From: Methylobacterium sp. Leaf91
GTDB lineage: Bacteria; Pseudomonadota; Alphaproteobacteria; Rhizobiales; Beijerinckiaceae
DNA length: 64,000 nt
Reading direction: 5' to 3'
Assembly: GCF_001422815.1 (NCBI RefSeq)
Contig: NZ_LMMP01000001.1
Location: 305,848 to 369,847, forward strand
Positions within the stretch are counted from its first letter, which is position 1. Each line of letters begins with the position of its first letter. Shown here piece after piece: positions 30,269 to 46,490 of this stretch. A program made the translations under genes and the position numbers. The notes under the pieces were generated by a model, which did not search any database, was not told where the DNA came from, and saw only the letters and a program-made list of their open reading frames with translations.

Positions 30269-30769
30269 GTGAGCGTGGAACTCGAGAACGACGTTGTAAC
30301 GGATTACATTGAGCTTACCGCCGACATCGTCTCGGCATTCGTGAGCAACAATTCCGTACCTGTTTCGGATATCGCAGCGCTGATCGCATCGATCCATGCG
30401 ACCCTGAGCAACCTGACGGCGGCCGCTTCGCCGGAGAAATTCGAGCCGTTGACGCCGGCCGTATCCATCAAGCGTTCGATCACGCCGGACTTCATCATCT
30501 GTCTCGAAGACGGCAAGAAGTTCAAATCGCTGAAGCGTCACCTTCGGACCCGCTATTCCATGACGCCTGACGAGTATCGGGCGAAATGGAGCCTTCCGAG
30601 CGACTATCCGATGGTTGCCCCGAACTACGCAGCCGCACGGTCGGAACTGGCGAAGAACATGGGTCTGGGCCAGCAGCGCCGGAAGACCCGCGTAAAGCCC
30701 CCCGCCGCCGAAGCCCCGACCTCTCCCGCACCGCGCGGCCGTCGCCCCCGCGCGGCTCTGGCCTCCTAA
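30269..30769 (+). CDS. MucR/Ros family transcriptional regulator
   Basis: About 166 residues. The N-terminal oligomerisation region reads YIELTADIVSAFVSNNSVPV followed by SDIAALIASIH. The DNA-binding domain reads TPDFIICLEDGKKFKSLKRH, then LRTRYSMTPDEYRAKW, followed by a basic Pro-rich tail. MucR regulates exopolysaccharide, motility and cell-cycle genes in Hyphomicrobiales. Of the four Ros zinc ligands the first Cys and first His are present, but the second Cys is Asp (CLED) and the last His position is Arg (LRTRY), so zinc may not be bound. The frame opens with TTG at 30236, but GTG at 30269 fits family N-termini better. Confidence 0.88.
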   Translation: MSVELENDVVTDYIELTADIVSAFVSNNSVPVSDIAALIASIHATLSNLTAAASPEKFEPLTPAVSIKRSITPDFIICLEDGKKFKSLKRHLRTRYSMTPDEYRAKWSLPSDYPMVAPNYAAARSELAKNMGLGQQRRKTRVKPPAAEAPTSPAPRGRRPRAALAS

Positions 30770-36125: not shown

Positions 36126-37834
36126 CGGACGGCTTGGCCCCGGTCGATCGGCAGGCGGTCGCCCTTGAGTTCGTCGGGTGTCGGAAGGCTGCGCACGTCC
36201 CAGCCGCCGCCCAGCGCCCGGATGAGGCTCACCGCCGTGGTGAAGCGGTTGAGCCGCACCTGCAGGGCGGTCACTTCGTTGTTCAGTTCCAACGCCTGGG
36301 CGGTGATGACGGTGGTGAAGTTCTGGGTACCCGCCCGGTATTCGTTGAGGGTGATCTCCACGGCGCGGCGGGCGGAGGCTACGGCCTCCTCCTGCGCCGC
36401 CTGCTGCCGGGCGAGGATGCGCACCCCGGCCAAGCCGTTCTCCACCTCGGCGAAGGCGGTGAGCACGGTCTGGCGGTAGGTCGCCACCGTGGCGTCGTAG
36501 GCGGCTCTCGCGATCTGCACGGCGGCGGTGCGGGCGCCGCCATCGAGCAAGGTTTCGCTGCCGGCCGCGGCCACCGACCAGACCTGGTTGGCCGCCGAGA
36601 AGACGCCGTTGCTGGTCAGCCCCGAGACGCCGCCCGAGCCCGAGAGGACCAGGGTCGGGTAGAAGGCCGCCACGGCGACGCCGATCTGCTCGCTCTGGGA
36701 CTGGACGCTGCGCTCGGCCTGCGCGATGTCCGGGCGCCGCTCCAGCAGGGCGGAGGGGATGCCCACCGGAACCGCGGGCGGCGTCTTCGGCAGGCTCCCC
36801 TTCGGCAGGGACAATTCGGAGGGCGGCCGCCCGATCAGCGTCGCGATGGCGTGTTCGAAGGTCGCGCGCTGCAGGCCCACCGCGATGGCCTGGGCCTGGG
36901 TCGATTGCACCTGCGTCTGCGCCGTGATCACGTCGGAACGGGCCGCCACGCCGGCATTGTACTGGTTCTCGGTGATGGCGAGGCTCTTCTTGTAGGCCTC
37001 CACCGTCTCGTTCAGCAGGCGCTGCAGGGAATCCTGGTAGCGCAGGCTGAAATAGTTGGTGGCGACCTCGGACTGGATCGCCAGGCGCACCGCCGCCAGA
37101 TCCGCCGCGCTCGCCTGGGCATTGGCGACCTCGCTCTCGATGTTGCGCCGGATGCGGCCGAACAGGTCGAGCTCCCACGAGGCCTGGGCCTGGAGCGAGA
37201 CCGAGGTGCGCTCGGTGCCGAGCGTCCGCGAGCGCGTGATCGTCGGCGCGCCGATGACCGTGGGGTAGAGCGCCGAGCGCGCCTGGGCGACGAGGCCGCG
37301 CGCCTGGTCGTGGGAGGCCAGGGAGACGCGCAGGTTCTGGTTGTCCACGTCGACGAGGCGGATCAGCCGGTCGAGGGCGGGGTCGCGGAACACGCGCCAC
37401 CAATCGCCGCGCTCGGCCCCGTCATTGGGCTGCACCGCGCGCCACCCCTTCCGCGTGGCGACATGGGCCACACTGTCCTCACGCATTCCGCCCTGCTTGA
37501 ACGCCAGCGGCGTCTCCACGGAGGGGCGGGAGTAATCGGGCCCGACCATGCAGCCGGAGAGGGTTGCGGCGAGGGCGAGGACGGGCAGGCACCAACGCCC
37601 CTTCCCTCCCCCCTTTGCGGGGGAGGGTGGCCCTCGCGTGAGCGAGGGTCGGGAGAGGGGAGCGCCCTGACCGGAGAGGTCGGCCCCTCTCCCGCCTGCT
37701 CCGCAGGCACCCTCCCCCGCACCAAGTCGGGTCTGCCCGACTTGGCCAGCCAAAGACGGATCTCGGGCAAGCCCGAGGTCCGTGGGGGGAGGGTTGCTAC
37801 GCGCGGGTCGCATCGTCCGGTCACGCCCGCTCAT
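36113..37834 (-). CDS. RND efflux outer-membrane lipoprotein (NodT/OprM type)
   Basis: The frame is 573 residues. The recognisable protein starts at WCLPVLALAATLSGCMVGPD (lipobox LSGC, then GPDYSRP), followed by two OEP domains of the TolC-like fold (WWRVFRDPALDRLIRLVDV, SWELDLFGRIRRNIES, QYNAGVAARSDVITAQTQVQ, LLERRPDIAQAERSV). It is the outer-membrane exit duct for the MdtABC-like pump just upstream. The ATG at 37834 overlaps the mdtC stop (ATGA). The first 80 or so residues are encoded by two palindromic repeat elements and precede the lipoprotein signal, so the real start may be a non-standard codon just before the signal. A GGGGGGAGGGAAGGGG tract lies there. Confidence 0.85.
   Translation of the reverse strand: MSGRDRTMRPARSNPPPTDLGLARDPSLAGQVGQTRLGAGEGACGAGGRGADLSGQGAPLSRPSLTRGPPSPAKGGGKGRWCLPVLALAATLSGCMVGPDYSRPSVETPLAFKQGGMREDSVAHVATRKGWRAVQPNDGAERGDWWRVFRDPALDRLIRLVDVDNQNLRVSLASHDQARGLVAQARSALYPTVIGAPTITRSRTLGTERTSVSLQAQASWELDLFGRIRRNIESEVANAQASAADLAAVRLAIQSEVATNYFSLRYQDSLQRLLNETVEAYKKSLAITENQYNAGVAARSDVITAQTQVQSTQAQAIAVGLQRATFEHAIATLIGRPPSELSLPKGSLPKTPPAVPVGIPSALLERRPDIAQAERSVQSQSEQIGVAVAAFYPTLVLSGSGGVSGLTSNGVFSAANQVWSVAAAGSETLLDGGARTAAVQIARAAYDATVATYRQTVLTAFAEVENGLAGVRILARQQAAQEEAVASARRAVEITLNEYRAGTQNFTTVITAQALELNNEVTALQVRLNRFTTAVSLIRALGGGWDVRSLPTPDELKGDRLPIDRGQAVRTDE
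37601..37795. repeat. Two palindromic elements inside the nodT-type reading frame
   Basis: The first copy (about 37601-37664) reads CCCTCCCCCCTTTGCGGGGG, then AGGGTGG, a variable hairpin and CGGGAGAGGGGAGCG. A second copy in inverse orientation follows (from 37683: CCCCTCTCCCG, hairpin, CACCCTCCCCCGC), extended by AAGTCGGG/CCCGACTT and CTCGGGCAAGCCCGAG hairpins. On the minus strand they are translated as PLSRPSLTRGPPSPAKGGG and related residues. Confidence 0.75.
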
Positions 37835-40800
37835 TCGGCCGGGCTCACCGAAACGCCGGGCGTCGGCTTCCGCCGGCGGAGGCGGTCGAGATAGAGGTAG
37901 ACGACGGGTGTGGTGTAGAGGGTCAGGAGCTGGCTCACGATCAGGCCGCCGGCGATGGCGATGCCCAGGGGGCGGCGCATCTCCGACCCCTCGCCCCCGG
38001 CGAGGATGAGAGGCAGGGCGCCGAGCAGGGCCGCCAGCGTTGTCATCATGATCGGCCGGAAGCGCAAGAGGCAGGCCTCGAAGATCGCATCCTTCGGTGT
38101 GGCTCCGCGCGTGCGCTCGGCATCGAGCGCCACGTCGATCATCATGATCGCGTTCTTCTTGACGATCCCGATGAGCAGGAACACCGCGATCAGCGCGATG
38201 ATGGTGAATTCCGTGCCGGAGACGAGGAGCGCCAGCAGCGCGCCGATGCCGGCCGAGGGCAGCGTCGAGAGGATCGTCACCGGATGGACGAAGCTCTCAT
38301 AGAGGATCCCCAGGATGGTGTAGACGGCCAGCAGCGCGGCCAGGATCAGCAGCGGCTGGCGCGAGGACGAGGCCTGGAAGGTCTTGGCGGCGCCCGCGAA
38401 CTCGCCGTGGATCGTCGCCGGCAGGCGTAAGGCCGCCTCGGCCTCCTCGATGGCGGCGGTGGCGTCCGAGAGGCTCTTGCCCGGCGCCAGGTTGAACGAG
38501 AGCGTGGTCGCGACGAACAGGCCCTGGTGGCTCACCTGCACGGGCGCGTTCGCGGTCTCGACCCGGGCGAAGGCCGAGAGCGGGATCATCGTCTCCTTGG
38601 CGCTCGAGACCGGGGCGCTGGACGAGGCCCCCGCCCCGCCCGCGATGGCGTTGGAGGCGGCGTTGCGGGCGGAATCGGCGGCGATGGTGGAGGCCGTCGT
38701 CCCCGTCGTCGCGGCCCCCGCCACCGTCCCGGCCACCGCGTTGGTGATGGCCGAGCCGCGCGCCTTGCCGCCGGAGGTCGAGACGAAGACGGTCTTCAGG
38801 GTCTCAGGGCTCTGCAGGTAGCGCGGCGCGATCTCCATCACGACGTGGTACTGGTTGAGCGGATTGTAGATCGTCGAGACCTGCCGCTGGCCGAAGGCGT
38901 CGTAGAGCGTGTTGTCGATCTTGTCGGGCGTGATGCCGTAGCGATAGGCCGTGGCCCGGTCGATGACGAGGCGGCTTTCCAGCCCGCCCTCCTGCTGGTC
39001 GGAGGTGACATCGGCGAAGACCGGATTCTTCTGCAGCGCCTCCACGAGCCGGGGCGCCGCCGCATAGAGCTCGTCGGCCGTGTCACCCTGGAGGGTGTAC
39101 TGGTACTGCGCGAAGCTCTGGCGCCCGCCCATGCGGAGGTCCTGGCGCGGGAACAGGAACAGCCGGGCGCCCGCCACCTGCGCCAGCTTGGGGCGCAGCC
39201 GGGTCATCACCTCGGTGATCGAGGCGCGCTCGCCCCGCGGCTTGAGGCCGACGAAGACATTGGCCGAGTTGGTGGCGCGCCCGCCGGTGAAGCCGACGAC
39301 GCTGTCCACCGCCGGGTCGGCCTGCACGATGGCGGTCGCCTGTTCCAGCTTCTGCTTCATCGCCTGGAACGAGATGCGCTGGTCGGCCTGGATGCCGCCC
39401 ATCATCTGACCCGTATCCTGCTCGGGGAAGAATCCCTTGGGGACGATGATGTAGAGATAGACGTTGAGCCCGATCGTCGCGAACAGCGTGAGCAGCACCA
39501 GGCGGCGATGAGCGAGGGCGATCCGCAGGGTCCGCTCATAAGCGCGCAGCGTTCCCTCGAAGGCGCCTTCCAGCCCCCGGATCAGGAGGTTGGGGCGGCG
39601 CGGCGCCTCTCCCTCCGGCACGCTTTCACGCTTGAGCAGGAGCGCGCACATCATCGGCGTGGTGGTGAGCGAGAGGACCAGCGAGATCAGGATCGCCAGG
39701 GACAGGGTGACGGCGAATTCCTCGAACAGCCGCCCGACGATGCCGCCCATCAGCAGGATCGGGATGAACACCGCGATCAACGACAGGGTCATGGAGATGA
39801 CGGTGAAGCCGACCTCCTTCGACCCGGTGAGGGCGGCCTCCACCCTCGGCTTGCCGAGCTCGATATGGCGCTGGATGTTCTCCAGGACGACGATGGCGTC
39901 GTCCACCACGAAGCCCGTCGCGATGATGAGGGCCATCAGCGACAGGATGTCGAGGCTGTAATCCAGCAGGTACATGGCCGAGAAGGTGCCGATGATCGAG
40001 ATCGGCACGGCCACGGCCGGGATCAGGGTCGCCCGGCCGGAGCGCAGGAAGGCGAAGACCACGCCGATGACGAGGACGACCGCGATGATCAGGGTCTCCT
40101 CGGTCTCGGCGAGGGAGGCACGGATCGTGGCGCTGCGGTCGCCCGTGACGGTGAGGTCGATGTCTCCCGGCAGCGCTGCCTGGACCTGCGGCAGCGCCGC
40201 CTTCACCGCCTTGATGGTGTCGACCACGTTGGAGCCGGGCTGCTTGTAGATGAACAGGATCACGCCCGGCCGGCCGTTCACGAGGCCGAGATTACGCTTG
40301 TCCTCCACCGAATCCTCGACCTTGCCCACATCGGTGAGACGCACGCCCGCCCCGTTGCGGTAGGCCACGACGATGTCACGGTAATCCGCCGCCACCCGGC
40401 CCTGGTCGTTGGCGTAGAGCTGGTAATGGCGGGTGTCGGTCTCGATTGCGCCTTTCGGGGAATTGGCGTTGGCCGAGGCGATCGCGGCGCGCACCCCTTC
40501 GAGCCCGATCCCGTAATTGTAGAGGGCGGTGGGATCGAGTTCGACCCGCACCGCCGGGAGCGACGAGCCGCCGATATCGACATTCCCCACCCCGGGGAGC
40601 TGGGACATCTTCTGCTGCACCACCGTGGCGGCGGAATCGTAGAGCTGGCCCGGCGACAGGGTGTTCGAGGTCAGGCCGAGGATCAGGATCGGCGCATCGG
40701 CTGGGTTGAACTTGCGATAGGTCGGGTTCGAGCGCAGGGCGGTGGGCAGGTCGGCCCGCGCGGCGTTGATCGCCGCCTGCACGTCGCGGGCGGCCCCGTC

Positions 40801-41103
40801 GATGTCGCGGTTGAGATTGAACATCAGGACGATCCGCACCGTCCCGACGGAACTGGTGGAGGTCATCTCGCCCACATCGGCGATGATGCCGAGCCGCCGC
40901 TCCAAGGGGGCCGCCACCGTCGTCGCCATGGTCTCGGGCGAGGCCCCGGCCATCTGCGCCTGGACCAGGATGACGGGGAAATCCACCTGCGGCAGCGGCG
41001 CCACCGGCAGCTTGAAGAACGCAAAGATCCCCGCCAGCAGTACCCCGATGGTGAGCAGCGTCGTGGCGACCGGACGGCGGATGAACGGTTCGGAGACGTT
41101 CAT
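37831..41103 (-). CDS. mdtC: RND multidrug efflux transporter, MdtC-like
   Basis: A 1090-residue RND pump subunit with the typical N-terminus (IRRPVATTLLTIGVLLAGIF, PVAPLPQVDFPVI, GASPETMATTVAAPLERRLG). Transmembrane relay residues lie in [19 protein letters not shown], and [13 protein letters not shown] is near the end. Motif details (APLPQVDFPVI and GRATLIPAVAVPISIIGTFS) fit MdtC rather than MdtB. It should form a heterotrimer with the MdtB-like subunit. Its start overlaps the DUF559 frame stop (ATGA). A low-complexity Ala/Ser/Thr insertion of about 55-60 residues (about 777-834) makes it longer than usual. Confidence 0.92.
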   Translation of the reverse strand: MNVSEPFIRRPVATTLLTIGVLLAGIFAFFKLPVAPLPQVDFPVILVQAQMAGASPETMATTVAAPLERRLGIIADVGEMTSTSSVGTVRIVLMFNLNRDIDGAARDVQAAINAARADLPTALRSNPTYRKFNPADAPILILGLTSNTLSPGQLYDSAATVVQQKMSQLPGVGNVDIGGSSLPAVRVELDPTALYNYGIGLEGVRAAIASANANSPKGAIETDTRHYQLYANDQGRVAADYRDIVVAYRNGAGVRLTDVGKVEDSVEDKRNLGLVNGRPGVILFIYKQPGSNVVDTIKAVKAALPQVQAALPGDIDLTVTGDRSATIRASLAETEETLIIAVVLVIGVVFAFLRSGRATLIPAVAVPISIIGTFSAMYLLDYSLDILSLMALIIATGFVVDDAIVVLENIQRHIELGKPRVEAALTGSKEVGFTVISMTLSLIAVFIPILLMGGIVGRLFEEFAVTLSLAILISLVLSLTTTPMMCALLLKRESVPEGEAPRRPNLLIRGLEGAFEGTLRAYERTLRIALAHRRLVLLTLFATIGLNVYLYIIVPKGFFPEQDTGQMMGGIQADQRISFQAMKQKLEQATAIVQADPAVDSVVGFTGGRATNSANVFVGLKPRGERASITEVMTRLRPKLAQVAGARLFLFPRQDLRMGGRQSFAQYQYTLQGDTADELYAAAPRLVEALQKNPVFADVTSDQQEGGLESRLVIDRATAYRYGITPDKIDNTLYDAFGQRQVSTIYNPLNQYHVVMEIAPRYLQSPETLKTVFVSTSGGKARGSAITNAVAGTVAGAATTGTTASTIAADSARNAASNAIAGGAGASSSAPVSSAKETMIPLSAFARVETANAPVQVSHQGLFVATTLSFNLAPGKSLSDATAAIEEAEAALRLPATIHGEFAGAAKTFQASSSRQPLLILAALLAVYTILGILYESFVHPVTILSTLPSAGIGALLALLVSGTEFTIIALIAVFLLIGIVKKNAIMMIDVALDAERTRGATPKDAIFEACLLRFRPIMMTTLAALLGALPLILAGGEGSEMRRPLGIAIAGGLIVSQLLTLYTTPVVYLYLDRLRRRKPTPGVSVSPAE

Positions 41104-41686
41104 GGGCGGGGAGCCGGGCGCATACTCCCTCCCCCCTCTGCGGGGGAGGGTGGCCCGGCCGTCAGGCCGGGTCGGGAGAGGGGAGCGACGCGGCCGGACG
41201 CGGCGCGAGCCAGCCGCGCCTCGACGGTCGCGCCGACCGTGTCGAGGACCGAGGCGAGATCGCTCAGGACACGGTCATTCGGGAAGCGCAGAATCTCGAA
41301 TCCCTGCTCCCGCAGCCAGACATCGCGCGCGGCGTCGCGATCACTGCGTTCGGCCTCGTCATGCGGGGCTCCGTCGAGTTCGACGATCAGTCGGGCGGAG
41401 GCGCAGAGGAAATCGGCGATGTAGGGCGGCAGGGGAACCTGGCGTCTGAATTTGAGCCCACGGAAGCGGCTACCGCGCACCTGCTGCCAGAACGCATCCT
41501 CGGCAAGGGTACGGAGCCGACGTTGCTCGCGAGCGAACGCACGCAGATGTGGAGTGGGTCTGACGAGGGTCCGCCCATCGTCGCTCTGCGCGTCCGATCC
41601 GGAAACCGGGTTCCCCTCTCCCGACCCCCTTCGGGGGCCACCCTCCCCCGCAGAGGGGGGAGGGAGAGTGACGGCAAGGTCCCGGA

Positions 41687-41690
<4 letters not shown>
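41100..41690 (-). CDS. DUF559 endonuclease-like protein between palindromic elements
   Basis: The frame is 196 residues. The core (about residues 45-160) is a DUF559 domain related to Vsr/PD-(D/E)XK nucleases: [72 protein letters not shown]. The N-terminus ([18 protein letters not shown]) and C-terminus ([20 protein letters not shown]) are encoded by two inverted copies of the palindromic element. GTG at 41690 overlaps the mdtB TGA, and its own TGA overlaps the mdtC ATG. It splits an operon in which mdtB and mdtC are normally adjacent, so it looks inserted. Whether the whole frame or only the core is translated is unknown. Confidence 0.75.
41125..41185. repeat. Palindromic element, copy at 3' end of DUF559 gene
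   Basis: CTCCCTCCCCCCTCTGCGGG, then GGAGGGTGG, a CCCGGCC-GTCA-GGCCGGG hairpin, then TCGGGAGAGGGGAG. Same design as the element at 37601 and inverse to the one at 41611. Confidence 0.8.
41611..41668. repeat. Palindromic element, copy at 5' end of DUF559 gene
   Basis: TTCCCCTCTCCCGA, a CCCCC-TTC-GGGGG hairpin, CCACCCTCCCCCGC, then AGAGGGGGGAGGGAGAG. Inverted relative to the copy at 41125; together they bracket the DUF559 core. Confidence 0.8.
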
Positions 41691-44800
<3,110 letters not shown>

Positions 44801-44865
44801 GGGGCGAGCCCTTCCCCCACCGGGTCTCGGACTTGCCCGACCGTCGGCGTGAAGCGCCACGCGCT

Positions 44866-44957
44866 CCCTCTCCTGGAAGGAGAGGGTTGGGGTGAGGTGT
44901 AGTCGATCTCCGGAAAGGTCACACACCTCACCCTGTCCCTCTCCTTCCAGGAGAGGG
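44866..44957. repeat. Large inverted repeat between mdtA and mdtB
   Basis: CCCTCTCCTGGAAGGAGAGG (from 44866) continuing GTTGGGGTGAGGTGT, and ACACCTCACCC, then TGTCCCTCTCCTTCCAGGAG ending at 44957, are near-perfect inverted arms. It belongs to a different sequence family from the 41125/41611 elements. It could form a strong mRNA hairpin between the two cistrons. Confidence 0.8.
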
Positions 44958-45071
44958 AACCCGCGCTACCCGTGCGATCCGCCCAAGCCTTCGCCAGGAA
45001 ACGGATCACTGTGACATCCGGTGCGGCCATGGATGCGGCGAACAGCGCGCCATTCATAGGCAACAAGGCGC

Positions 45072-46490
45072 TCATTGCGCCGCCGGCCGCTCTCTGCGGC
45101 GCTCGCGCTTCTGCGGCGGGTTTTCGGGAGGCGTCCCGGCGGCGGGGGTCGATGTCGTGGCCGGGGCGTCGGTTGCAGGTGCGGCTTGGCCAGGTGCGGC
45201 TTGGCCGGGCGCCGCAGGTTCGCCGGGTGCCGCCGGCTGGCCCTTGCCGCCCTCGGTGACGCGGACCTTGGCGCCGTCGCGCAGGCGGTCGGTCCCATCG
45301 ACCACAACCCGGTCGCCGACCGCCACCCCCTTGGTAACGGCACTGCGCGTGCCATCGGCCTCGCCGACGGTGATCGGCCGGACCACGACCTTGTCGTCGC
45401 TGTCGAGCAGGTAGACATAGGCGCCGGGCGTGCCGCGCAGGATCGCGGCGGTGGGGACGATGGGCGTGTCCCGCACCGTATCCACGGTGAGCTTGGCGTT
45501 CACGAACTGGTTCGGGAACAGGCTCTCGTCCTTGTTGTCGAACAGCGCGCGCAACTTCACCGTGCCGGTGGTGGTGTCGATCTGGTTGTCCACCGTGTCG
45601 AGGGTGCCGGTGGCGAGCACGTTGGCATCGCCCCGGTCATAGGCGGTCACCGTGAGCTTCGCCCCCGAGCGCAGGCGGCGCATGACGCGCGCCACGTCGT
45701 CCTCGGGCAGGGTGAACACCACCGAGATCGGGTGCAGCTGCGTCACCACCACGATGTTGGTGGAGGCGGCGGTGACGTAATTGCCCTGGTCGATCTGGCG
45801 CAGGCCGACGCGGCCCTCGACGGGCGAGACGATGCGCGTATAGGCGATGTTGAGCTTCTGCTGGTCGACCTGGGCCTGATCGATGGCGACCGTGCCCTCG
45901 TTCTGCTTCACCAGGGCCGCTTGCGTGTCCACGTTCTGCTTCGAGATCGAATCCTGCAGGCTGAGGCGCTGGAAACGGGCGAGGTCGAGCTTCGAATTCT
46001 GCAGCAGGGCCTGATCGCGGGCGAGCTGGCCCTGGTACTGGGCGAGTTGCGCCTCGTAGATGCGCGGATCGATCTGGGCGAGGAAATCGCCCTTCTTCAC
46101 GGTCTGCCCCTCGCGGAAGCCGATCTCCGTGAGATAGCCGCTGATCTGCGACTGGATCGTCACGGTGGCGAGCGGCGTCACCGTGCCGAGGCCCGACAGC
46201 ACCACCGGGATCTCGCCGGTGGAGACCGTGGCGACCCCGACCGCCTGTGGCATGTCGCCCGGACGTCCACGGGCGCCCTTGCCGCGGGCGGGCGCGCCGT
46301 CGGCCGTGCTCTCCGTCTTGGGAGCGAGCTTGGGCGCGAGATAGAATCTGTAGCCGGCCGCTCCCGCCCCGGCGAGGAGGAGGAGCAGGATCAACCATGT
46401 TCCCACACGGCTTCGCCGGCGCGTCGGCGCCGGGGTGTCCGGTCTGAATTCCCGGGCCGTTTCGGTCCGGATGGGCGATTGTTCGTTCAT
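45072..46490 (-). CDS. mdtA: RND efflux periplasmic adaptor, MdtA-like
   Basis: About 472 residues. An N-terminal membrane anchor (VGTWLILLLLLAGAGAAGYR) is followed by the membrane-fusion-protein fold: VPVVLSGLGTVTPLATVTIQ-type lipoyl half, GYLTEIGFREGQTVKKGDFL, a helical hairpin, and RIVSPVEGRVGLRQIDQGNY. The C-terminus is a Pro/Ala-rich tail ending in a basic cluster. It links MdtB/MdtC to the outer-membrane duct and is the first gene of the operon. The ATG at 46490 is chosen as the conserved start, although its ribosome-binding site is weak; the frame extends to a GTG at 46583. Confidence 0.92.
   Translation of the reverse strand: MNEQSPIRTETAREFRPDTPAPTRRRSRVGTWLILLLLLAGAGAAGYRFYLAPKLAPKTESTADGAPARGKGARGRPGDMPQAVGVATVSTGEIPVVLSGLGTVTPLATVTIQSQISGYLTEIGFREGQTVKKGDFLAQIDPRIYEAQLAQYQGQLARDQALLQNSKLDLARFQRLSLQDSISKQNVDTQAALVKQNEGTVAIDQAQVDQQKLNIAYTRIVSPVEGRVGLRQIDQGNYVTAASTNIVVVTQLHPISVVFTLPEDDVARVMRRLRSGAKLTVTAYDRGDANVLATGTLDTVDNQIDTTTGTVKLRALFDNKDESLFPNQFVNAKLTVDTVRDTPIVPTAAILRGTPGAYVYLLDSDDKVVVRPITVGEADGTRSAVTKGVAVGDRVVVDGTDRLRDGAKVRVTEGGKGQPAAPGEPAAPGQAAPGQAAPATDAPATTSTPAAGTPPENPPQKRERRRERPAAQ

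Follow-up and report, generated by a model that had tools for sequence, protein, structure and literature searches.

The window analysed here, a stretch of 64,000 nucleotides from a Methylobacterium genome (the source genome, G000), raises the question of what a nuclease-like gene is doing between two genes of an efflux operon, enclosed by inverted copies of a palindrome, and whether its protein acts on the palindromes that surround it. The original prediction saw in this arrangement a REP/RAYT- or MITE-like mobile unit in which a nuclease possibly replaces the Y1 transposase.

A DUF559 gene and its palindromes in an efflux operon

The RND efflux operon lies on the minus strand of the window, where a DUF559 (PF04480) open reading frame of 196 aa with a GTG start (41100–41690, minus strand) is located between two genes that we identify as AcrB-type RND pumps and for which we keep the predicted names, mdtB and mdtC. 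The upstream, mdtB-like frame is listed at 41687–44926 and the downstream, mdtC-like frame at 37831–41103, both on the minus strand; on our reading, the real start of the former probably lies downstream of the listed start. The PF04480 match (E = 2.4e-34; 117.9 bits against a curated cut-off of 20.6), together with the AcrB-type genes on both sides, bears out the placement of a DUF559 gene between mdtB- and mdtC-like genes. In the Pfam scan at E 0.001, the other match of this frame was the sub-threshold PF18741, and PF03852 (Vsr) gave none. The overlaps with both neighbours are also as predicted: the GTG start (41690–41688) overlaps the TGA of the upstream gene (GTGA), and the TGA stop (41102–41100) overlaps the ATG of the downstream gene (ATGA). 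The palindromes lie inside the reading frame at both ends, and because the GTG is the sole in-frame ATG, GTG or TTG ahead of the DUF559 domain (41229–41546, minus strand), the palindrome there is probably translated.

The predicted structure of the protein (mean pLDDT 88.9) best matches a solved DUF559-type protein (3hrl, E = 9e-9), followed by the homing endonuclease I-Bth0305I (3r3p, E = 3e-4, TM 0.67) and, weakly, by Vsr (1vsr, E = 0.03, TM 0.62; 1cw0, E = 0.07, TM 0.63). All PDB sequence matches beyond 3hrl and 3r3p had E values of at least 0.1. I-Bth0305I resembles the present protein in fold and in its tie to mobile DNA; it was deposited as a mobile-intron protein, whereas here the palindromes are scattered without the gene and no intron was noticed. 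Ten columns (R, E, Q, D, E, G, H, D, R and R in alignment A1) do not vary across 44 diverse DUF559 sequences; those of an EDxHD-type active site (E, D, H and D) are presumably among them. Annotation of DUF559 proteins as Vsr-like is frequent, and the present protein is a predicted PD-(D/E)XK nuclease of this type. In the accessible portion of a 2005 report, YcjD was tied to Vsr through profile comparison (PMC1189080). For VsrA, a DUF559 protein of Caulobacter, the available text shows that it sets off the SOS response where a cytosine methyltransferase is missing, and proposes a mismatch-repair role, with TG-mismatch activity as a hypothesis (PMC12907096).

Inverted palindromes frame the gene, as had been noticed: a 32-nt repeat (41125–41156 and 41635–41666) is 100% complementary, and a second pair of arms (41169–41207 and 41589–41627) reaches 72%. 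At one end, the outer part, a hairpin of the type termed class A (41127–41150, plus strand), reads CCCTCCCCC-CTCTGC-GGGGGAGGG, and the inner part (41154–41198, plus strand) comprises a second small hairpin, the purine tail GGGAGAGGGG at 41174–41183 and CCGGA at 41194–41198, 10 nt past the tail. The other end is inverted, with its outer part at 41641–41664 and its inner part at 41598–41637 (both minus strand); the second hairpin occupies 41625–41637, and the minus-strand purine tail (41613–41622) and TCCGGA (41598–41603) keep the 10-nt offset of the first end. No GTAG stands at the hairpin foot in the window unit or its genomic copies, and no Rfam family matched window positions 37000–46000. 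A relaxed hairpin pattern gave six matches in the window against 0.22 expected from shuffling, the six representing three palindromes (at 37604, 41127 and 41641) in two registers each. When a 320-bp pseudo-gene was slid across the window, the inverted-repeat threshold defined below was reached at 3 of 788 positions, all at the DUF559 gene.

Two further palindrome units in the window contain no gene. A REPIN-like class A double palindrome (37604–37793, plus strand) has ends as in the gene unit, and its right hairpin is interrupted by a 62-bp palindromic insert (37722–37783). A class C double palindrome with a central TCCGGA (44866–44958, plus strand) lies upstream of mdtB. The operon carries palindrome units at three gene junctions, with class C before mdtB, the DUF559 unit between the pump genes and class A past mdtC. 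Different palindromic sequence held inside class A hairpins, as at 37722–37783, was also observed at loci L262, L253 and L075, and such inserts may represent a separate element with these hairpins as its target.

DUF559 genes are linked to palindromes, and clades to palindrome classes

Three surveys of DUF559 loci were compared: the best 132 of the loci listed for the genus of the source genome (DUF559 match in 97 of 111 genomes), 88 other Pseudomonadota loci (match in 108 of 299 genomes of the phylum) and the best 80 of a larger set from named records, with 5, 2 and 6 loci, respectively, omitted at contig ends. Two loci, L312 and L156, apparently come from one genome. For each locus, we scored the best inverted repeat between the 350-bp windows flanking the domain, with a threshold of at least 40, and took as controls pairs of windows further out at the same loci, which are mostly coding DNA. 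The threshold was reached at 150 of 287 DUF559 genes and in 0 of 564 control pairs; the respective counts were 45 of 127 against 0 of 254 in the genus, 58 of 86 against 0 of 172 in other Pseudomonadota and 47 of 74 against 0 of 138 in the named records, where the controls and the hairpin count cover 69 of the 74 usable loci. A perfect 8-bp hairpin with a pyrimidine 5' arm occurs within 350 bp of 260 of 282 DUF559 loci (123 of 127 in the genus, 79 of 86 in Pseudomonadota and 58 of 69 named-record loci) as compared with 31 of 564 control pairs, and was not found at the other 22. The polarity is pronounced: 574 hairpins at DUF559 are pyrimidine-first, 3 are opposite and 107 are mixed.

Phylum-matched control genes in the same windows gave 0 of 27 for Vsr (3 loci omitted) and 0 of 26 for ParE (4 omitted) on both measures, and pseudo-genes slid over the outer parts of the loci reached the threshold at 55 of 6,754 positions, in 18 loci. 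Vsr differs from DUF559 in lacking flanking palindromes at these 27 loci as well as in belonging to a separate Pfam family. A true Vsr gene is present in G000 itself (contig C12, 204898–205107, L367), also without flanking palindromes. The linkage extends to several phyla, and the preferential flanking of DUF559 genes by palindromes in relatives, on which the original prediction depended, is seen. Positive named loci include, by record title, one to three each from Myxococcota, Planctomycetota, Nitrospirota, Thermodesulfobacteriota, Rokuibacteriota, Binatota and Melainabacteria, mostly metagenome assemblies. Scores below 30 were found among the named records at Cupriavidus and Bordetella loci and at some Legionella, Neisseria and Pseudomonas loci. 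Records from a plasmid collection, kept outside the survey totals, reached the threshold at 3 of 6 loci (98, 52 and 208, the 98 being a Deinococcus plasmid), and the low-scoring ones were Neisseria (33), Synechocystis (21) and E. coli (20). A Sphingomonas plasmid (L269) provides a further operon-junction insertion: its DUF559 gene, flanked by inverted palindromes, stands between genes for NAD(P) transhydrogenase subunits. TCCGGA was rejected as a universal centre of these units: its counts are 84 versus 8 in the genus, but 6 versus 10 and 6 versus 13 elsewhere, and this centre is genus-specific.

Within the genus, the palindromes were assigned to classes A–E by patterns composed after viewing the sequences; no pattern fitted 12 of the 132 loci, and 2 loci fitted two classes each. 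Inspection by eye showed a palindrome at most 400 bp away at every one of the 12 unclassed loci (one locus being partly masked). We placed the labels on a tree of the 132 genus proteins, built from 108 columns and with many forks open. When C and D were treated as one class, the 118 rows with a label, in four classes, required 3 changes, the minimum possible, as compared with at least 54 in 100 shuffles of the labels; a first count, with C and D apart and the two-class loci kept, gave 11. Four DUF559 clades pair with these four palindrome classes, and a fifth clade of six rows falls outside all patterns and has palindromes by eye. The double unit of clade E stands to one side of the gene, which explains the low scores of this clade in the inverted-pair test. 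Many tree rows are orthologues at one site, so orthologous loci are not independent: grouped by their flanking DNA, all 132 fall into 17 to 23 sites, and therefore common descent accounts for part of the clade–class match. The match itself is observed across sites, with clade CD spread over 11 and clade A over 4 to 7, and the class is kept in every labelled row.

Copy number also follows the cognate clade, for the two genus classes counted (A and B) and for one class in a second genus, with exceptions. The 35 genomes with a fetched clade-A gene hold a median of 30 class A matches and none lacks them, as compared with a median of 3 in 76 other genomes, 24 of them lacking (p = 1e-7). For class B, the median is 24 (lowest 6) in 24 genomes with a fetched clade-B gene and 0 in 87 others, 49 of them lacking (p = 4e-10). 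Reversed-pattern controls for both counts gave 0. In the second genus, one DUF559 has a close relative in 16 genomes (a match of at least 76% identity, one partial, with the cut-off chosen after viewing the list), and these have a median of 4.5 cognate palindromes, 1 lacking, as compared with 0 in 65 others, 41 lacking (p = 8e-8). The exceptions run in both directions. At least 20 class A matches occur in 19 of the 76 genomes without a fetched clade-A gene, and at least 15 class B matches in 11 of the 87 without a fetched clade-B gene; two genomes (G046 and G061) have 45 and 47 class A matches, yet no DUF559, and three clade-A genomes have only 1, 6 and 6. Clades E (p = 7e-5) and B (p = 0.014) are likewise associated with class A matches, the remaining cross pairs giving p values of 0.07–0.84. 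In one genome (G015, contig C1), class B palindromes stand in tandem with a period of about 250 bp at 549986–550770 and near 30374, 888304 and 897160, and one of these arrays stops about 300 bp from the clade B gene L128.

Units with and without the gene

G000 contains 15 exact copies of the half-palindrome found in the window unit, two of them at the DUF559 gene, and a looser class A pattern gives 37 matches. The other 13 exact copies belong to units of about 135 bp with identical ends and a short centre replacing the gene, the unit inside the window being longer owing to its insert. In 12 of these 13 solo units, CCGGA lies 10 nt inside the purine tail, as it does at either end of the gene unit, and the two kinds of unit have their terminal inverted repeats in common; judged from these shared ends, the gene-less units therefore resemble a gene unit from which the gene is missing. 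Besides the window gene, G000 has one further DUF559 match, L002, which on our reading sits between the pyruvate dehydrogenase E2 and E3 genes and is flanked by inverted palindromes of another type. The RAYT-family Y1 transposase (PF01797) gave no match in G000; among the 19 genus genomes searched, it is present in 2 and absent from 17, G000 included.

Head-to-head palindromes are of two kinds among the places listed: all 9 pairs that stand 200–3,000 bp apart enclose DUF559, and the other 36 stand at most 183 bp apart. In the genus, the first 150 listed class A places, from 8 genomes, contain 34 pairs at 99–183 bp and a sole wider one of 512 bp, around DUF559. In the second genus, 126 listed places from 39 genomes contain 2 short pairs and 8 of 514–520 bp, each of the eight enclosing DUF559 and all probably representing one orthologous site. 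Other passenger genes were sought between the palindromes, and none was found among these 150 and 126 places. Gene-bearing units in the genus are mostly at a few shared sites, and the gene-less double palindrome is the dispersed form.

The mdtB–mdtC junction is changeable among relatives. In 14 genomes, assigned by both flanks, the gene at this site is of clade A and its palindromes are of class A; in three others (L044, L084 and L102), the gene is of clade CD and the palindromes are of class C. When 30 such junctions were read, the pump genes were overlapping or at most 7 bp apart in eight. The site is empty in many relatives, and neither of the two results named as refuting in the original prediction came up in the comparison. 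One junction has a 49-bp spacer with no palindrome by eye, three have a single palindrome (L248, L250 and L255), and three have a gene-less double unit (class A in L262, class E in L264, and a part-A plus D unit in L254). DUF559 itself is present in thirteen, belonging to clade A in twelve and to clade C in one (L246); two junctions are unmeasurable, with one flank missing (L244 and L249). Among the matches listed, both flanks could be paired in 50 genomes; at most 57 bp separate the conserved flanks in 31 of them, and these 31 short junctions gave no match to the palindrome portion. No target-site duplication is readable at mdtB–mdtC, where the spacers are too divergent to place the unit ends, and no mobilisation event was seen in the genomes compared.

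Triplex-type repeats and a proposed role of the nuclease

Each palindrome is a pyrimidine–purine hairpin, which in most cases adjoins a purine block. In class B, the last two arm bases mirror the first two block bases in 42 of 43 cases, and in 22 of the 23 that are other than plain GG. Across 366 asymmetric hairpins at DUF559 (A set equal to T), a perfect mirror was found in 235, as compared with 157 for the direct and 54 for the shuffled order. In their letters, the repeats fit the intrastrand-triplex motif BoxC/PIT/TM, for which the accessible part of a 2015 survey gives the rule of a pyrimidine–purine hairpin followed by a mirrored purine block (PMC4666352). According to the same excerpts, the E. 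coli motif forms a triplex in solution and has 23 copies, which the survey links to no transposons, phages or plasmids and around which its authors never found transposase or integrase remnants (PMC4666352).

We favour, with moderate confidence, the reading that DUF559 is the dedicated nuclease of its own palindrome class, whose cut or nick would spread gene-less double palindromes in trans in a RAYT-like manner, because the anatomy is RAYT/REPIN-like, the pairing is cognate and the Y1 family has no match in G000. The predicted nuclease, we infer, would bind its own palindrome class, perhaps where single-stranded or supercoiled DNA exposes it as a hairpin or triplex, and would then nick or cut there. 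Repair or replication after the cut would copy the double palindrome to new sites, so that gene-less units would spread in trans, as RAYT transposases are thought to spread REPINs.

The main rival is a caretaker role, in which the nuclease recognises replication-stalling triplex or hairpin palindromes and cuts or repairs them, maintaining rather than spreading them, and the repeats beside the gene are binding or control sites. The weak fold likeness to a repair nicking enzyme, the concentration of genus genes at shared sites and the link of Caulobacter VsrA to DNA damage in the available text (PMC12907096) are consistent with such a role, as is the report, in the survey portions at hand, that triplex motifs stop DNA polymerase in vitro, an effect not found in vivo, and that the loci carrying them show more rearrangement (PMC4666352). 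Taken alone, however, a caretaker leaves unexplained both the exact ends and centre shared by gene-less and gene units and the tracking of copy number with the cognate clade, and we consider it unlikely. That the DUF559 enzyme either spreads or maintains palindromes of this kind is likely. Less probable still is a selfish passenger or homing-type DUF559 that lands in pre-existing palindromes spread by something else. The fold match to a homing endonuclease, the two different DUF559 clades hosted at the mdtB–mdtC site and the other palindromic sequence found within these hairpins speak for it; yet landing in existing palindromes would not yield clade-specific classes, G000 has no match to a Y1 transposase, and DUF559 is the sole gene inside the head-to-head pairs listed. 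That DUF559 is a mismatch-repair (VSP) enzyme partnered by a cytosine methyltransferase and that the repeats are incidental is very unlikely: the published Caulobacter data point that way, but TG-mismatch activity of VsrA is a hypothesis in the accessible text (PMC12907096), the 27 true Vsr loci lack the repeats and the repeat association spans several phyla. GC-rich intergenic hairpins are common and the Vsr-like annotation is frequent, but palindromes as ordinary terminators or stabilising operon hairpins beside an unrelated repair gene are highly improbable and are rejected as a full account by the hairpin linkage, the Vsr and ParE controls, the sliding pseudo-genes, the Rfam result and the clade–class match, provided that the controls are sound.

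RAYTs are Y1 HuH tyrosine transposases that act on GTAG-tagged REPs. The dedicated-nuclease reading shares with the REPtron/REPIN system, as described in the accessible part of PMC3733652, a nuclease gene between inverted palindromes, scattered gene-less inverted dimers of the same palindrome and repeat-specific matching of palindrome and protein, the palindromes here being cognate to the gene lineage with exceptions. It differs in that the protein belongs to PF04480, a family of predicted Vsr-like PD-(D/E)XK nucleases, and in that GTAG is missing from the foot of the palindrome. As in MITEs, short units carry the terminal inverted repeats of a longer gene-bearing unit, whereas no target-site duplication was seen here. 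MITE enzymes are DDE transposases, which the DUF559 protein is not. The predicted REP/RAYT- or MITE-like unit with a nuclease in place of Y1 stands in its linkage and anatomy, but the palindromes are of the BoxC/intrastrand-triplex type and not GTAG REPs; likewise, scattering holds for the gene-less double palindrome, whereas the gene unit is mostly at few sites shared in the genus. BoxC/TM elements have the same hairpin and mirrored purine block, are intergenic and are sometimes in inverted pairs (PMC4666352, in its available portions); by comparison, a nuclease gene is linked here, whereas those portions of the E. coli survey report no mobility gene, and class A bears an extra small hairpin between the blocks.

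In the open-access full-text literature, as far as the retrieved portions go, we found no report joining DUF559, YcjD or Vsr with these repeats, and we rate as new the proposed use of REP/RAYT logic by an unrelated enzyme on a different DNA structure. A dedicated, clade-matched nuclease would, if true, explain the origin of triplex repeats, a type found dispersed in many bacterial genomes, E. coli among them, whose source has so far been unexplained, and would assign a function to a large family hitherto without one. It would also imply that unrelated enzymes came to this lifestyle, a single nuclease gene plus scattered palindromes, on more than one occasion, and the question would become testable in E. 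coli K-12 via ycjD. A broader proposal, that DUF559/YcjD proteins are the dedicated mobilising enzymes of BoxC/intrastrand-triplex repeats across bacteria, including E. coli, forming a spreading system whose PD-(D/E)XK nuclease reads triplex-forming DNA and which arose separately from RAYT/REPIN, is put forward tentatively, at slightly less than even confidence.

The ycjD gene of E. coli K-12 is a DUF559 gene, with a BoxC-type copy about 160 bp 3' of it; the identification of this copy as BoxC rests on its form and on the TTA loop described in the accessible literature. At a loose E-value limit, this copy as a query matched in 5,376 of 5,426 E. coli genomes, with a median of 19 places per genome, and ycjD is present in only 3,365 of the 5,426. 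Two strains lacking ycjD (L413 and L414) were considered as clean empty sites and rejected, with other genes at that place: TetR-type and RND-adaptor genes stand beside fabI, as compared with ycjD and sapF in K-12 (L412). In K-12, a long, near-perfect AT-rich palindrome (L412, about 1962–2010) lies directly upstream of the ycjD start.
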